A stretch of DNA of 32,579 nucleotides from Haloterrigena salina JCM 13891 (GTDB taxonomy: Archaea; Halobacteriota; Halobacteria; Halobacteriales; Natrialbaceae): NCBI RefSeq assembly GCF_000337495.1, contig NZ_AOIS01000011.1:31249-63827 (forward strand), read 5' to 3'. Positions 9,987-32,445 of this stretch are shown here, in pieces (positions within the stretch are counted from its first letter, which is position 1; every line of letters starts with the position of its first letter). The notes below the pieces were generated by a model. That model made no database searches. It had not been told where the DNA came from and saw nothing but the letters and a program-made list of their open reading frames with translations. The translations under genes and the position numbers were made by a program.

Positions 9987-10090
9987 TTCCTGCGGCGAAC
10001 AAACTCGTGAGCCGCAGGAGTCGTCAGAGAATCGAACTACGCGAGACGAACGAAGTGAGTCTCGCAGTCGGGTTCGATTCTCGCACCCGG
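9963..10090 (+). repeat. tRNA-His 3'-end direct repeat with internal hairpins
   Basis: The 22 bases at 9963-9984 (T arm plus 3' acceptor of tRNA-His) recur exactly at 10069-10090. Between the copies lie a hairpin CCTGCGGC/GCCGCAGG (stems near 9989 and 10010), an 11-base inverted copy of the T arm (GAGAATCGAAC, 10027-10037) and a second hairpin GCGAGAC/GTCTCGC (10041-10065) whose loop holds CGAACGAAGTGAG. The layout is therefore copy, hairpin, inverted copy, hairpin, copy. No protein is encoded. Confidence 0.85.
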
Positions 10091-10130
10091 CCATTTCGAA
10101 ACGGTATCGTGAACGAGCCGCCGGTGTCCG

Positions 10131-15150: not shown

Positions 15151-15253
15151 AATTCACGGATTAAATTGATAGTACAATACTCTGTCGTGAGAGAGCTTCG
15201 CTCGCAGAACCTCAGTCTAGTTCAGAATCCGCTCGGCGTCGTTTCTACGTCTC

Positions 15254-15266
15254 CTCACTTCGTTCG
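15254..15266 (-). repeat. Shared tRNA-trailer motif after tRNA-Phe
   Basis: On the minus strand the exact 13-mer CGAACGAAGTGAG begins 13 bases past the 3' end of tRNA-Phe. The same 13-mer lies downstream of tRNA-His (10047-10059) and, on the minus strand, between the two repeat copies downstream of tRNA-Val (17507-17519). In every case it is on the tRNA-sense strand. Confidence 0.7.
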
Positions 15267-15279
15267 TCGCTGTAGAATA

Positions 15280-17470: not shown

Positions 17471-17609
17471 GGGCTCGGGCGGGTTCGAACAACGCGAAGA
17501 CGGTCGCTCACTTCGTTCGCGCTACGTCTTCTCTCGTTCGAAAGCCCTCGCATACATTCCTGTGACTCACTTTCGTTCGTCTCAGAAATGGGCTCGGGCG
17601 GGTTCGAAC
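17471..17609 (-). repeat. tRNA-Val 3'-end direct repeat with internal hairpin
   Basis: The 20 bases at 17590-17609 (3' acceptor and part of the T arm of tRNA-Val) recur exactly at 17471-17490, 119 bases downstream in tRNA sense. Between them is an inverted pair GAAGACG/CGTCTTC (near 17496 and 17525) enclosing the 13-mer CGAACGAAGTGAG (minus strand, 17507-17519). A one-base variant of the 13-mer (17566-17579) lies right after the tRNA. The arrangement parallels that after tRNA-His and tRNA-Met. Confidence 0.8.
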
Positions 17610-27996: not shown

Positions 27997-28277
27997 GCAC
28001 TGCGCGTATCCGGCGGATCTACCTAAACGATTCGAGACCGACTCGGAGCGACCGTCGAGACGCCCGACGACGCCGTGACACCGACGGATGCGTTCGAGAC
28101 GGTCACATGATTCGGTTGATATCACGATCTATCGATAGCGGTCCGGAACTCCGTCTTTCGAGCCAATTAGCGGAAAGTGGTCAGATAATAGAGTTATTTC
28201 AAACGCCAGGATAATCGGCTGAGATTCGCGTTTTCGGACGATCCGTTTCGGAGATTATCCCGTTTTCGAGAGGACGA

Positions 28278-28297
28278 GTATAACACAACTGTTATAC
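28278..28297 (+). promoter_or_regulatory. Perfect inverted repeat overlapping the cold-shock gene promoter
   Basis: GTATAACA and TGTTATAC form an eight-base perfect inverted repeat with a four-base spacer (CAAC). The repeat ends 26 bases before ATG 28324, and its right arm (GTTATAC) is at TATA-box distance from a leaderless start. It could be an operator covering the promoter, two back-to-back TATA boxes, or both. Confidence 0.6.
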
Positions 28298-28323
28298 GTG
28301 TCGCTCTACTCTCTTTGGTTGCA

Positions 28324-28518
28324 ATGGCGAAAGGAAACGTTGATTTCTTCAACGACACAGGCGGCTACGGTTTCATCGATACTGAGGACGCGGACGAGGA
28401 CGTTTTCTTCCACATGGAAGACGTTGGCGGCCCGGACCTCGAGGAAGGCACAGAGATCGAATTCGACATCGAACAGGCCCCCAAGGGCCCCCGCGCCACC
28501 AACGTCACCCGCCTGTAA
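28324..28518 (+). CDS. cspA: Cold-shock domain protein
   Basis: A 64-aa single cold-shock domain, the OB-fold RNA/ssDNA chaperone. The RNA-binding motifs are intact: GGYGFIDTED (RNP1, normally KGFGFI) and DVFFHMED (RNP2, VFVHF). It begins MAKGNVDFFNDTG and ends with PKGPRATNVTRL, as in haloarchaeal Csp proteins. It is markedly acidic, unlike bacterial CspA, as usual for haloarchaea. The frame extends to 28315, but ATG 28324 is the natural start and lies at leaderless distance from a TATA-like box inside the upstream inverted repeat. Single gene. Confidence 0.93.
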   Translation: MAKGNVDFFNDTGGYGFIDTEDADEDVFFHMEDVGGPDLEEGTEIEFDIEQAPKGPRATNVTRL

Positions 28519-28880
28519 TACGGCTTCTTGCGTTCGGTAACGGGTTTCACATTCGACTATACATTCTTCGGTAGGCTTCATCGGATAGCGGTAGCGCCCG
28601 TCGTTCGCCGACCGGAGTTAGCGCTCGTGTCTGAATCTAAATAGAGTTTCGCTAACTGGTAGTTCACTATCGGTCATATTCGGAGCCCCAGTCGGCCGGT
28701 CGGTTCGATTCGAGAGCGGGCGGCGGGTTTCAGGTGTGTCACTTGTAGCCACCCCTTACTGCCAGGGACCGATCCAATTCGTCCGCTTATCTGAGTTAGT
28801 CCCCCGAAACGACCGAGAAACAGTTGATACGCGAACGATAACAAATAGTCGAACAGTCCGTGTGTCGGTGTGGTTGCAAA
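28519..28880. other. A/T-richer intergenic region of about 360 bases
   Basis: No gene is recognised here. The stretch is unusually A/T-rich for this genome, with a 7-base inverted pair GTTAGCG/CGCTAAC (about 28616 and 28650) separated by CTAAATAGAG, and ACGATAACAAATAG near 28837-28850. The latter is about 35 bases upstream of the PadR-like gene and is its likely promoter. Confidence 0.45.
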
Positions 28881-29153
28881 ATGGACGATCTGACCGGATT
28901 TCAACGCGATCTTCTGTACGTGATCGCCGGAGCCGACCAGCCGTCTGGCCAAGAAGTCAAAGACGAAGTCGAGAAGTATTACAACAGTGAAATCAATCAC
29001 GGCCGGCTGTATCCTAATCTCGACACGCTCGTCAACAAAGAGCTCGTCGAGAAAGGGCAGCTCGATCGGCGAACGAACTACTACGCCATCAGCGACGACG
29101 GGCGGTCGGCGATCGAACAGCGCCGCGAGTGGGAACGGCAGTACATCGACTGA
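28881..29153 (+). CDS. PadR-family winged-helix regulator
   Basis: A 90-aa DNA-binding protein: MDDLTGFQRDLLYVIAGADQ (helix 1), PSGQEVKDEVEKYYNSEINH (recognition helix region), GRLYPNLDTLVNKELVEKGQ, then LDRRTNYYAISDDGRSAIEQ (wing). The GRLYPNLDxLVxxGLVxK and RTNxYxIT pattern is that of PadR/PhoU-type small regulators in haloarchaea. It lacks the C-terminal helical dimerisation domain of the larger PadR group, so it is the short type. ATG 28881 is chosen over the upstream frame beginning at 28860. It lies alone, and no target is obvious. Regulation of the adjacent HalOD1-like or cold-shock gene is possible but unsupported. Confidence 0.85.
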   Translation: MDDLTGFQRDLLYVIAGADQPSGQEVKDEVEKYYNSEINHGRLYPNLDTLVNKELVEKGQLDRRTNYYAISDDGRSAIEQRREWERQYID

Positions 29154-29311
29154 CCGTCTCCTAACTCCCAGTTCTGAACCGCACGCGCGCCGCGGGGGCT
29201 CGACGAGCGCCGCTTGTCGGTCCTCTCAAGGCGCCGTGGCACGCAGGACGGTCGCCGAGCCTCGAGTCCCGGCCACTCCCGGCCCGCTCGGGCTCGGCGT
29301 TTCGGCCGCGC

Positions 29312-29599
29312 TCACACGTCAGTGACCCGTATCTCGATCTCGTCGCCGACGTCGTGAAGCGAGACGTGCGTGCCATCGATCACGAACGAAACCGTCGTCG
29401 CCGCGTTCTGGTTGAACCGAAACAGTCGCTCGAGAGCGTCCGGGTTGATGATCTCGTACAGCGTGAAATCCGCCTCCACGAGGTCGATATCCTGATGGGC
29501 CTCGATCGCCCCCAGCACGGCCTCGCTCAGCGTCCGGTCCTCGTCCGGACTGAACGTCGTGTCGCCACTTCCCTGATAGGTTTGATTGTCGGTAGACAT
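29312..29599 (-). CDS. HalOD1-like output-domain protein
   Basis: A 95-aa protein made of one domain. Residues 25-92 read TLSEAVLGAIEAHQDIDLVE, ADFTLYEIINPDALERLFRF and NQNAATTVSFVIDGTHVSLH. This resembles the haloarchaeal output domain HalOD1, with its pattern of a helix, LYDxIDPDALDxLF and VSFxYxGxxVxV. HalOD1 proteins are often fused to, or encoded near, signalling proteins and are proposed to be output modules. Here it stands alone, convergent to the PadR-like regulator. ATG 29599 is preferred; the upstream extension to 29638 reads as Thr/Asp-poor non-coding sequence. Its molecular function is unknown. Confidence 0.8.
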   Translation of the reverse strand: MSTDNQTYQGSGDTTFSPDEDRTLSEAVLGAIEAHQDIDLVEADFTLYEIINPDALERLFRFNQNAATTVSFVIDGTHVSLHDVGDEIEIRVTDV

Positions 29600-29949
29600 G
29601 GATGGGATGCAACGCCCGTCGTACGTAAACGTCTCCACGGCACCTGCCTGCCCCGTTGCGATCGGTGATATGGGTCGGAGCCGACAATTCGGACGACCGG
29701 CGACCGTGAATGAAGGATGGAGAGTACAGGTATATTCACTCTGATAGTTACACGAGTCTCCCGGAACGCGCTTTCAGACCTCTCCATTTTGATAGCGTTA
29801 GTTGAGATTCAGTTTTTGCAACTGTTTATTATAGCCCATATAAGCGCTAACGGACCCGAAGTACGCCGACGGCTCGCTTCGCTCGCGTGCTGTGACTTCT
29901 CGGATTCGAACCGTCAGTGCGTAATCGATTCACTCCTCACGTCCGTTCG
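29600..29949. other. Intergenic region left of the tRNA-Met repeats
   Basis: About 350 bases without a gene. It includes an A/T-rich patch at 29815-29845 (TTTTTGCAACTGTTTATTATAG) and a third, degenerate copy of the tRNA-Met T arm (CGGATTCGAACC, 29901-29912), preceded by GGCTCGCTTCGCTCGCG. No start codon with good coding character follows the A/T-rich patch. Confidence 0.5.
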
Positions 29950-30083
29950 TCGCAGAATCGATGGGCCCTGACGGATTCGAACCTCGGTCGGAGCGAAGCT
30001 CCTCCCTGCTTCGAATCCGCAGGGGTCATTCCGTGCTGCTCGCGTCTGCTCGCAGAATCGATGGGCCCTGACGGATTCGAACC
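29950..30083 (-). repeat. tRNA-Met 3'-end direct repeat, exact 34 bases
   Basis: The 34 bases at 30050-30083 (12 bases of trailer plus the last 22 of tRNA-Met) recur exactly at 29950-29983, exactly 100 bases apart. An inverted copy of the T arm (TTCGAATCCG, 30010-30019) lies between them, next to the inner hairpin GGAGC-GAA-GCTCC. A third partial copy of the T arm is at 29901-29912. The copy is not a second tRNA because only the 3' end is present. Confidence 0.88.
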
Positions 30084-30168
30084 ATCGACCACTCGGTATC
30101 CCACACGACCTCACACTGTGGGGTCGCGTTATGAGCCGAGCGCTCTAACCAGACTGAGCTAAGGGCCC
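30062..30168 (-). tRNA. Elongator tRNA-Met (anticodon CAT) with 32-base intron
   Basis: The complementary strand folds with acceptor GGGCCCT/AGGGCCC and discriminator A. The anticodon CAT is at 30131-30133. After it, a 32-base insert (about 30097-30129, one-base ambiguity) interrupts the loop at the 37/38 position; removing it joins CTCGG-CTCATAA-CCGAG into a normal anticodon stem-loop and leaves 75 bases. The insert contains CGACC/GGTCG, consistent with a bulge-helix-bulge. Haloarchaeal elongator tRNA-Met is known to carry an intron here, which identifies it as elongator rather than initiator or Ile2. A TATA-like TTAATTA lies 30 bases upstream. Confidence 0.93.
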
Positions 30169-30238
30169 TTTCACTCGAGCAAAAACGTGCGTGGTAATTA
30201 ACGCTTGCTGTCCGTTTCGCCCGCGAGCGGGCCGGCGC

Positions 30239-30367
30239 CTACGCGGTCAGCGCCTCGAGTTCCTCGTCGCTCAGTTCCGCTTCCAGCTCCGCCTCGTCGT
30301 GGGACTCGAGGACGTCCGCCCGCTCCTCTGCGTCGAGTTCGGTGACGGATTCGAAGTGGTGACACAT
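30239..30367 (-). CDS. 42-residue acidic protein
   Basis: Reading complementary from ATG 30367 gives MCHHFESVTELDAEERADVL, then ESHDEAELEAELSDEELEAL and TA with a TAG stop. It starts with a Cys-His-His cluster, and the rest is one or two acidic helices. I recognise this pattern (MCHHF..., LDAEERAxVLxxH) as a small conserved haloarchaeal protein without known function. Codons have strong G/C third-position bias. The CHH cluster plus later His32-type residues could bind a metal; no activity is known. It sits upstream of moaB in the same direction but is separated by the tRNA side of the region. Confidence 0.65.
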   Translation of the reverse strand: MCHHFESVTELDAEERADVLESHDEAELEAELSDEELEALTA

Positions 30368-30429
30368 AGCAATCGAGGATAGGCGCGTGTCGTCAATAAG
30401 CGTTGGTTCAGGCGATCCGACCGATCGCG

Positions 30430-31017
30430 TTACTCCCCGTAATCCGCGAGCGTCTGGTCGTTCGTCCCGGTTCGGTGGCGCGTCGCCAGCCCCGCGAGGT
30501 GTGGCGCTTCGGGAACGATCAACTCCTCGCAGGCGGTCTCGCAGGCGCTCGTGCTCCCGGGGAGACAGAACACCGGCGTGTCGACGGCGATCCCCGCCTT
30601 CGCGCGCGAGGCCATCGCGCGGGTGCCGACCTCCTCCCAGGAGAGCATCCGGAACAGTTCCCCGAAGCCGGGCAGGTCGCGTTCGAACAGCGAGGCCGTC
30701 GCCTCCGGCGAGACGTCGTCGGCGGTGACGCCCGTCCCGCCGGTCGTGAGCACGATGTCGATATCCGGCCGGGCGACTAGTCCGCGGACGGCGGTTCGAA
30801 TTGCGGAGTAGTCGTCACGGACTAACAGCCGCTCTTGGACCTCGTGGCCCGCGTCCTCGAAGCACTCCTGGATCGTGTCCCCGCCCGGGTCGTCGGGATC
30901 GGCCTCGTCGGCCTGCGCGCGCGAACTCGAGACCGTGACGATGCCGACGTAGAGGGGATCGATGACGTCGTGGCCGTGGTCGTCCGTGCTCCGACGGTCG
31001 TCTCTATCGGTTGTCAT
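30430..31017 (-). CDS. moaB: Molybdenum cofactor biosynthesis protein MoaB/Mog
   Basis: A 195-aa member of the MoaB/Mog family that adenylates molybdopterin before molybdenum insertion. The conserved core is visible: VGIVTVSSSRAQ, DPGGDTIQECFEDAGHEV, the nucleotide and pterin-binding loop VLTTGGTGVTADDVSPEATA, and GTRAMASRAKAGI. The FCLPGSTSACETA motif near the C terminus completes the site. An N-terminal His/Asp-rich extension (RSTDDHGHD) precedes the fold. It is transcribed in the same direction as the CobW-like genes on its right, 110 bases away. Its product would serve molybdoenzymes such as the sulfite-oxidase-like protein at 3663-4910. Confidence 0.93.
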   Translation of the reverse strand: MTTDRDDRRSTDDHGHDVIDPLYVGIVTVSSSRAQADEADPDDPGGDTIQECFEDAGHEVQERLLVRDDYSAIRTAVRGLVARPDIDIVLTTGGTGVTADDVSPEATASLFERDLPGFGELFRMLSWEEVGTRAMASRAKAGIAVDTPVFCLPGSTSACETACEELIVPEAPHLAGLATRHRTGTNDQTLADYGE

Positions 31018-31128
31018 ACGCTGTCGTCCACGCCGGAGGGCGTTAATCCCTCGGCTCGCCGCGGGATGTTGCCTCGAGTGCGGTGCGGTCAGTGGACGGT
31101 CTATAGCCGTGCGACGCAGTCGGACTCG

Positions 31129-32445
31129 TTACTCGTCGCTCGAGACCGTCACCGACTCGCCCATCCCCGTCGGCGCGGAGTTCTCGAACGTCGACCAGTC
31201 GGCGTCCATCTCGGCGTCGGTCAGCAGACAGTCGTCGAGGCGGGCCTGCAGGTCGTCCATCGAGAGGTCGCGGCCGATCAGGGCGAGTCGCGTCTCGCGG
31301 TCGCCCCACTCCTCGTCCCACGAGAGGTCGTCCTGGGCCTCCCGGTACTGGTCCTGGCGCTCTTCGGAGAGGCTGGCGATCCAGCGACCCGTTACCTCGA
31401 GGGTCGTCGCCGTCCCGGCGTAGCTCATCGTGATCGCCTGTCGTTCGCGGCCGGCGATCCAGCACAGTCCCTTCGCGCGGACGAGGCCCGCGGGCAGGTC
31501 GGCGAGCAGCGCTTCGAAGCGCTCGGGGTGGAACGGCCGCCGCCGGTGGTACGTGTCGACCACGATCCCGTAGCGTTCCGGCGGGTGTGCGTGGTCGTCG
31601 TCACCGTGGTCGGACTCGTGGCTACCGTCCCCGTGGTCGTGTTCGTGACCGGCGGCGTCGTGGTCGCTTCCATCGGACTCGTCGGCGTCGGCCTCGATCG
31701 CTCGCTTCCAGCCCGCCGACTCGGCCGCGGCCTCGAGATCGAAGCGCCCGCTCTCGAGCAGCGCGTCGGGATCGAGCGATCCGTATTCGGTTGTGACGAT
31801 CTCGGCGCGAGGCTGGAGCGTCTCGAGGATTCCGACGACGCGCTCGCGTTCGGCGTCGGTCACGAGGTCGCACTTGTTGACGACCAGCAGGTCGCAGAAC
31901 TCGACCTGCTCGAGCAGCAGGTCCCCGAGCGGTCGGCTGCCGGACTCGTCGGGACCCTGTCGTTCGGGCCGCACGGGCGGGCCGTCTCCCGCGACGGCCG
32001 CGTCGTCGGTCGCTCCATCGACCGCGTCGGCGGCCGCGAACCGATCGTGGAACCGCCGGGCGTCGACCACCGTGACGACCGCGTCGAGGTCGTAGGGGCC
32101 GCCCGCGGGGCCGCGGACGAACTGCCGGGCGATCGGCTCCGGTTCGCCGACGCCGGAGGCCTCGACGACGAGGTACTCGAAGTCGTGTTCCTTCCACAGT
32201 TGGATGACCGACCGGGAGAGTTCGCCGCCGAGGCTACAGCAGATACAGCCGTTCTCGAGGGCGACGACCTCCTCGCCGGTCCGCAAGTCGGTACGCGCTT
32301 CGACGAGATCGGCGTCGACGTTGACGCTGCCGACGTCGTTGACCAGCACGGCGATCTCGCGGTCGGTCGACTCGAGCAGGGCCGACAGAAGGGTCGTCTT
32401 GCCGGCGCCGAGTTCGCCACAGAGGACGGTGACGGGAACGCTCAT
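31129..32445 (-). CDS. CobW/COG0523 metal-chaperone GTPase
   Basis: A 438-aa G3E GTPase of the COG0523 family, which delivers metal ions such as zinc or cobalt to client proteins. Walker A is GELGAGKT (residues 10-17). The metal-binding CxCC motif is Cys67-Ile-Cys69-Cys70 in ENGCICCSL. VVEASGVGEPEP is the switch region and NKCD (190-193) the guanine-specificity motif. A His/Asp-rich linker (about 260-288, HEHDHGDGSHESDHGDDDHA) adds metal-binding capacity. The CobW C-terminal domain follows (GIVVDTYHRRRPFHPERFEA). Its start codon overlaps the stop of a second CobW-like gene (ATGA, 32442-32445), so the two are coupled. The extended Asp/Gly-rich insert at 140-172 is unusual. Confidence 0.92.
   Translation of the reverse strand: MSVPVTVLCGELGAGKTTLLSALLESTDREIAVLVNDVGSVNVDADLVEARTDLRTGEEVVALENGCICCSLGGELSRSVIQLWKEHDFEYLVVEASGVGEPEPIARQFVRGPAGGPYDLDAVVTVVDARRFHDRFAAADAVDGATDDAAVAGDGPPVRPERQGPDESGSRPLGDLLLEQVEFCDLLVVNKCDLVTDAERERVVGILETLQPRAEIVTTEYGSLDPDALLESGRFDLEAAAESAGWKRAIEADADESDGSDHDAAGHEHDHGDGSHESDHGDDDHAHPPERYGIVVDTYHRRRPFHPERFEALLADLPAGLVRAKGLCWIAGRERQAITMSYAGTATTLEVTGRWIASLSEERQDQYREAQDDLSWDEEWGDRETRLALIGRDLSMDDLQARLDDCLLTDAEMDADWSTFENSAPTGMGESVTVSSDE
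31195..31266 (-). repeat. 72-base exact copy shared with the contig end (copy 1)
   Basis: These bases code for the 24 residues LSMDDLQARLDDCLLTDAEM plus DADW of the CobW-like protein and recur exactly at 32508-32579. To their left (toward the C terminus) the two genes diverge completely. Confidence 0.95.

Follow-up and report, generated by a model that had tools for sequence, protein, structure and literature searches.

The window analysed here is a stretch of 32,579 nucleotides from the draft genome of the haloarchaeon Haloterrigena salina JCM 13891 (genome G000; contig C11, positions 31249-63827; 4.84 Mb in 71 contigs). It contains a tRNA-Met (cat) gene with an intron on the minus strand at 30168-30062, recognized by Rfam RF00005 with 57.7 bits but missed by ARAGORN. 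Read on the tRNA strand, the gene is followed by two consecutive units. Each contains a hairpin A, an inverted copy of the T arm (inv), a hairpin B and a direct copy of the tRNA tail (dir), which comprises the T arm and 3' acceptor strand of that tRNA; the second unit is decayed. The other three tRNAs of the window are followed by a unit of the same kind or by its remnant. The features are the following.

30062 to 30168, minus strand: tRNA-Met (cat) gene with intron; its last 22 nt (30083-30062, GGTTCGAATCCGTCAGGGCCCA) are dir1
30023 to 30061, minus strand: hairpin A of unit 1, starting with the trailer TCGATTCTGCGA and containing GCGAGCAGACGCGAGC
30010 to 30022, minus strand: inv1, inverted copy of the cognate T arm, CTGCGGATTCGAA
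29984 to 30009, minus strand: hairpin B of unit 1, type 1 (GCAGGGAGGAGCTTCGCTCCGACCGA)
29962 to 29983, minus strand: dir2, exact copy of the tRNA-Met tail
29918 to 29961, minus strand: hairpin A of unit 2 (CGATTC..CGAACGGACGTGAG..GAATCG) with linker, beginning with the copied trailer TCGATTCTGCGA
29905 to 29917, minus strand: inv2, inverted arm CTGACGGTTCGAA
29861 to 29904, minus strand: hairpin B of unit 2 (GCGAGCGAAGCGAGC type)
29844 to 29860, minus strand: decayed dir3, TTCGGGTCCGTTAGCGC against TTCGAATCCGTCAGGGC
9988 to 10092, plus strand: unit behind tRNA-His, with A, inv GAGAATCGAAC, B and tail copy CGGGTTCGATTCTCGCACCCGG
17471 to 17588, minus strand: unit behind tRNA-Val, with A, inv, B and tail copy GTTCGAACCCGCCCGAGCCC
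15181 to 15279, minus strand: remnant unit behind tRNA-Phe, with A, inv and the start of B; no tail copy was found

The repeat that drew attention to this locus is real. An exact 34-nt direct repeat occupies 29950-29983 and 30050-30083 with a spacing of 100 nt, and none was obtained in 100 dinucleotide shuffles, even with 3 mismatches allowed. It covers the last 22 nt of tRNA-Met and 12 nt of trailer, as the preliminary description had it. The inverted 10-base piece reported between the copies, TTCGAATCCG, is present at 30010-30019. The third partial copy, at 29898-29912, exists as a match but was misread: on the tRNA strand it is inv2 (29917-29905), which looks direct only because TTCGAA is its own reverse complement. 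The decayed third tail at 29860-29844 was also listed in the repeat search, at 77%. An assembly error, which had been named in advance as a possible cause, is not the explanation in the sense of an artefact of one draft, as the same architecture is found at many loci of other genomes.

The interpretation first given to the repeat is supported only in part. Units made of the tRNA end and trailer are indeed repeated, and a recombination origin is plausible. The number of units, whose comparison between strains had been put forward as a test, does vary between related genomes. However, the inverted copy is a regular part of the unit rather than incidental, two structured hairpins lie between the repeats, and a single tandem duplication behind tRNA-Met is rejected, since the same units follow other tRNAs, each with copies of its own tRNA.

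We examined 48 usable tRNA matches of the genome (49 were found, one partial match being dropped). Of these, 21 have a copy of their own 22-nt tail scoring 14 or more within 20-300 nt downstream; one of them (C11:141783) is simply the next tRNA-Asp gene, leaving 20. Non-cognate tails reach that score in 0 of 1640 combinations. With a looser score of 12 and 350 nt, 24 of 48 tRNAs of this genome (two of them explained by neighbouring tRNA-Asp genes) and 27 of 45 of the congener G025 have one. At three loci of this genome (L067, L092 and L097), copies next to single N letters behind tRNA-Asp and C44:2955 look like assembly joins and should not be counted as biology. In two genomes of other haloarchaeal families, 8 of 15 tRNAs each (those with loci, chosen by Rfam score) have a copy at score 12; these were not inspected one by one. 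Of 31 tRNAs in loci from other classes of the phylum, 0 have one, and of 3 in-class tRNAs in that sample, 1 has.

The 20-mer of the Met tail is present in 97 of 125 family genomes. Nine of these, including this one, have two copies 100-129 nt apart, two have copies 35-36 kb apart and one 5.4 kb apart. BLAST of the window's tRNA-His and tRNA-Val against 61 family genomes gives tail-only matches, mostly about 100-130 nt downstream. By a hand count of the tables, they occur in 29 of 61 genomes for His and 36 of 61 for Val, of which G095 and G096 have theirs 24-35 kb away and G040 on other contigs. The loci examined show A-inv-B-tail units, up to three in tandem. At locus L265 of genome G005, three identical 111-bp units lie in tandem behind a partial tRNA-His, through recent amplification or an assembly effect.

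The type-1 B pattern is found in 38 of 125 family genomes and 20 of 29 genera, with 0 for the reversed pattern. A scan of genome contigs from 84,980 species for its core found 24 stretches, all from haloarchaea. Of the 25 sites in them, 21 have a tRNA predicted upstream on the same strand, two lie behind a protein gene with a T-arm-like end (L129) and two are in other contexts (L135, L148). The protein gene ends in ..DWDGYRFEPV-stop and its 3' end (GGTTCGAACC, GGTTCGAACCGG) mimics a T arm; units follow it in three genomes (L129, L278, L280). At L135 and L148, from Natrialba, type-1 B hairpins lie beside a TGTTCCCGCG sequence, duplicated in L148, that is not a tRNA; this host feature was not identified.

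The repeats begin at G53/T54 of the T arm; of 66 sense direct repeats whose first copy lies in a tRNA, most start at GGTTC or GTTC, that is at G52/G53. Among the entries examined, those marked non-tRNA were mostly antisense views of tRNA sites. In 401,259 bases of this genome scanned without regard to tRNAs (contig C37 and the window), direct repeats of 18 nt or more with an inverted piece of 9 or more were found only behind tRNAs. The rest of the genome was not scanned in this way, and a reversed-sequence control is uninformative because reversing keeps repeats. In one set of loci where the automatic identification of T arms failed for several members, only L223, L240, L242 and L214, read by eye, were used. 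The unit consists of two hairpin segments of about 45 and 39 nt median.

Hairpin A often has the form stem-CGARC-loop-GYGAG-stem. In 60 distinct A stems of that form (from 133 A segments), 5.92 of 7 positions pair, against 4.08 with shuffled partners (maximum 4.50 of 500 shuffles); G-T cells are 32 and A-C cells 16. In 33 aligned type-1 units, of 50 collected, the inv-B-dir stem has 95.2% standard pairs, eight pairs changed on both sides and a covariation score of 0.241 against 0.094, with 0 of 500 shuffles as high. Much of that covariation is the cognate relation itself, as inv follows the T stem of its own tRNA. With RNA parameters, the sense strand folds better than the antisense in 109 of 131 A and 93 of 116 B segments (85 of 131 and 85 of 116 with DNA parameters). 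The segments used for the folding and A-stem analyses are not phylogenetically independent. Several B types share inner motifs, with outer helices that differ but still pair. Nested hairpins also occur: at L072 compared with its G025 orthologue L306, and at L168 and L175, small GA-type hairpins (GCGAACGG..CCGTGAGC) are inserted inside the loops of B hairpins.

Tail copies tend to gain single pyrimidines in the T loop. Among 185 tail copies behind 245 tRNA flanks, we counted 25 single-base insertions and 1 deletion; 19 insertions fall between positions 57 and 59, and the inserted base is C in 18, T in 6 and A in 1. They occur behind tRNA-Pro, two tRNA-Thr, two tRNA-Arg, tRNA-Met and tRNA-Phe. 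Many of these loci were picked by their B hairpin and orthologues are not independent, so that the number of events is smaller, perhaps eight or more. A reverse-transcription origin of the +1 insertions is not supported, position 57 itself being rarely substituted (3 of 179). An eight-base T loop would spoil a seven-base recombinase overlap or put a bulged pyrimidine in the inv-dir stem; we do not choose between these possibilities.

G000 and G025 belong to the same genus. Of 15 orthologous first units, six have A and B both alike. C12:53288 (tRNA-Arg) and C30:115872 (tRNA-Met) have the same A and a different B, while C34:61645 has the same A and the same B feet with a hairpin inserted inside B. 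C37:156816 (tRNA-Leu) has an identical B and a different A, C37:136328 a changed A, and C11:66389 extra sequence before A; the remaining three differ in both. In all, 2-3 units have the same A and a replaced B, and 3 have the same B and a changed A. Behind tRNA-Met (C63:4785) and tRNA-Ser (C67:303171), this genome has a whole extra unit in register. Behind the same tRNA-Ser (tga), hairpin A is replaced by about 750 bp of low G+C (L074:1590-2340; 33-44% in the 250-base windows that cover it, surroundings 62-74%), followed by the usual inv-B-tail. This AT-rich insert, placed where hairpin A sits in the congener, carries a 187-codon ORF with a hydrophobic N-terminal stretch by eye, whose function is unknown and for which no family search was made. 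It is the only unit seen to carry a gene in place of A.

We clustered 98 modules from loci picked by tRNA only, leaving out those picked by their B hairpin. At 85% identity, 1 of 12 A clusters and 7 of 14 B clusters span more than one tRNA; pairs of modules from different tRNAs share an A cluster 10 times and a B cluster 114 times. So A is locus-bound while B is shared, and the T-arm copies are where the exchanges stop.

No carrier of the units was seen: the type-1 and one type-2 B pattern were absent from IMG/VR, and the window unit had no match in the phage and plasmid collections; only these two B patterns and the window unit served as queries. Probable integrated elements of 24-36 kb lie at tRNA-Val and tRNA-Met (L282-L285 of G095 and G096; L042-L045 of G073 and G077). 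In G095, one 23.7-kb element (L283) has an integrase-like ORF at its right end beside a type-9 B hairpin, which suggested that B hairpins belong to integrases. In a second element (L285), however, a complete unit lies outside the element end, so the hairpin there is more likely a pre-existing unit. Proviruses can apparently use dir2 as their site: by eye, the sequence directly behind tRNA-Met in G021 resembles what follows dir2 in G022, and that of G034 resembles what follows the tail copies of G040 and G098. That these are proviruses is inference.

Several described systems come close in form. The E. coli tyrT repeats (rtT RNA, Rfam RF00391) are repeat units behind a tRNA gene, each with a copy of the last ~19 nt of the tRNA, and the units described here likewise hold a tail copy in each tandem unit. 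The tyrT repeats are one locus in one lineage, with no inverted T arm and no exchangeable hairpins, whereas here about half of the tRNA genes of a genome and many units of different sequence are concerned. No RtT match was found in window positions 28001-31500 up to E 5, and a search for papers naming both rtT RNA and tyrT found none. Integron cassette arrays (attI/attC) share with the units arrays anchored at a fixed site, an imperfect-palindrome hairpin bounded by inverse and direct core sites at each unit's end, exchangeable cassettes and strand-specific folding. Their core sites read GTTRRRY / RYYYAAC, while the dir copies read GTTC[AG]A with a tRNA-specific extension, position 56 being changed in 1 of 179 copies. 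The integron integrase profile TIGR02249 gave 0 of 4 genomes over the cut-off (best 40 of 265 bits), although generic tyrosine recombinases are present in 4 of 4, and the units contain almost no genes. An inv-B-dir hairpin and tandem units are there, but whether the hairpin is a recombination site was not tested, which leaves this point of resemblance undecided. The tRNA att sites and partial tRNA copies of archaeal proviruses also duplicate the tail of the tRNA; those flank kb-size elements, whereas here short hairpin units with an inverted arm, often in tandem, show neither an element body nor an integrase between the repeats. Haloarchaeal PATE, SMR and MITE repeats and IS200-IS605 ends (PMC3119063) are similarly short, palindromic and without coding capacity. 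PATEs and SMRs are dispersed and have no target duplication, while direct repeats, mostly 14-43 nt, flank the mostly tRNA-bound units. Action of a Y1/HUH transposase on the hairpin was not assayed, nor was an association with such genes searched.

We conclude that the feature is a two-unit array of a haloarchaeal family of tRNA-tail hairpin cassettes. The analysis itself demonstrates the architecture, the cognate copies, the compensatory stems, the presence or absence of whole units between congeners, and the independent replacement of A and of B with breakpoints at the T-arm copies. The mechanism, on the other hand, is inferred. In this view, the alternating T-arm copies (direct, inverted, direct) are the junctions at which hairpin cassettes are inserted, lost and exchanged at the DNA level; the folded form is the tRNA-sense strand; and a recombination enzyme supplied in trans, which was not identified, acts on T-arm/hairpin junctions. 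The main hosts would be tRNA genes because a unit brings its own copy of the tRNA 3' end, so that the tRNA stays intact whichever copy is used. Recombination at the T-arm copies is the simplest reading that fits gain, loss, A-only and B-only exchange, tandem growth and target preference, and we favour it tentatively. It is weakened in that no enzyme was found and no carrier was seen with the queries used. Many units are also vertically inherited and conserved across genera, which also fits a function in place, and the sense-strand preference and the excess of G-T over A-C pairs fit RNA as well as single-stranded DNA.

The latter observations, together with the compensatory stems and a U-G pair kept in 25 of 33 type-1 units, are what speaks for an RNA-level element, read through from the tRNA gene and working as structured RNA, for example by pairing inv with the tRNA T arm or with the decoy tail, or by capturing tail-binding enzymes. 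We consider this unlikely: the units sit after T-rich trailers that would stop archaeal transcription (an inference, as the scan made here covers bacterial-type sites only and is no test of it), the B hairpin behind one tRNA differs between genera and congeners, half of the tRNAs lack a unit, and units also follow a protein gene. Slippage and template switching at T-arm palindromes, with gene conversion and no dedicated enzyme, could also make and erase units. T arms are dyads, the units are quasi-palindromic, inv is imperfect at its outer edge, the L265 array is made of identical units, and repeat-mediated deletion is described in Haloquadratum (PMC3119063). We hold this origin to be somewhat less likely still, since it does not by itself give the same B hairpins behind different tRNAs and in different genera.

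Least likely, and already disfavoured, is that the units are attL/attR scars of viruses, plasmids or other integrative elements since deleted. Although tRNA 3' ends are the usual archaeal att sites (PMC8371274), provirus-like sequences here follow dir2 copies as well as the tRNA itself, and true element ends 24-36 kb away exist, the length and anatomy of the units are regular across many tRNAs and genera, and the insert is two hairpins and not element remains, with no match in the viral, phage or plasmid collections for the queries used. A bolder and doubtful possibility, not excluded by our data, is an integron-like cassette system without IntI, anchored on tRNA genes. In it, the T arm would be the insertion site, the inv-B-tail hairpin a folded single-strand recombination site made cognate to its host tRNA, and the unit bodies (usually hairpin A, once the 187-codon gene behind tRNA-Ser) the cassettes, which a lineage-specific recombinase would insert, delete and swap.

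We found no description of these units in the open-access literature searched, including PMC8371274, PMC3119063 and PMC9897764, although subscription papers and preprints were outside its scope; with this caution, and since the nearest precedent is one locus and integrons fail on two defining features, we regard the family as a new category. The reading is directly testable in genetically tractable haloarchaea. If it is right, roughly half of the tRNA genes in the haloarchaeal genomes examined carry an unannotated, structured, exchanging module. This would affect how provirus att sites and partial tRNA genes are annotated, explain why tRNA flanks differ between close relatives, and point to an unknown DNA (or RNA) processing activity that recognizes T arms.
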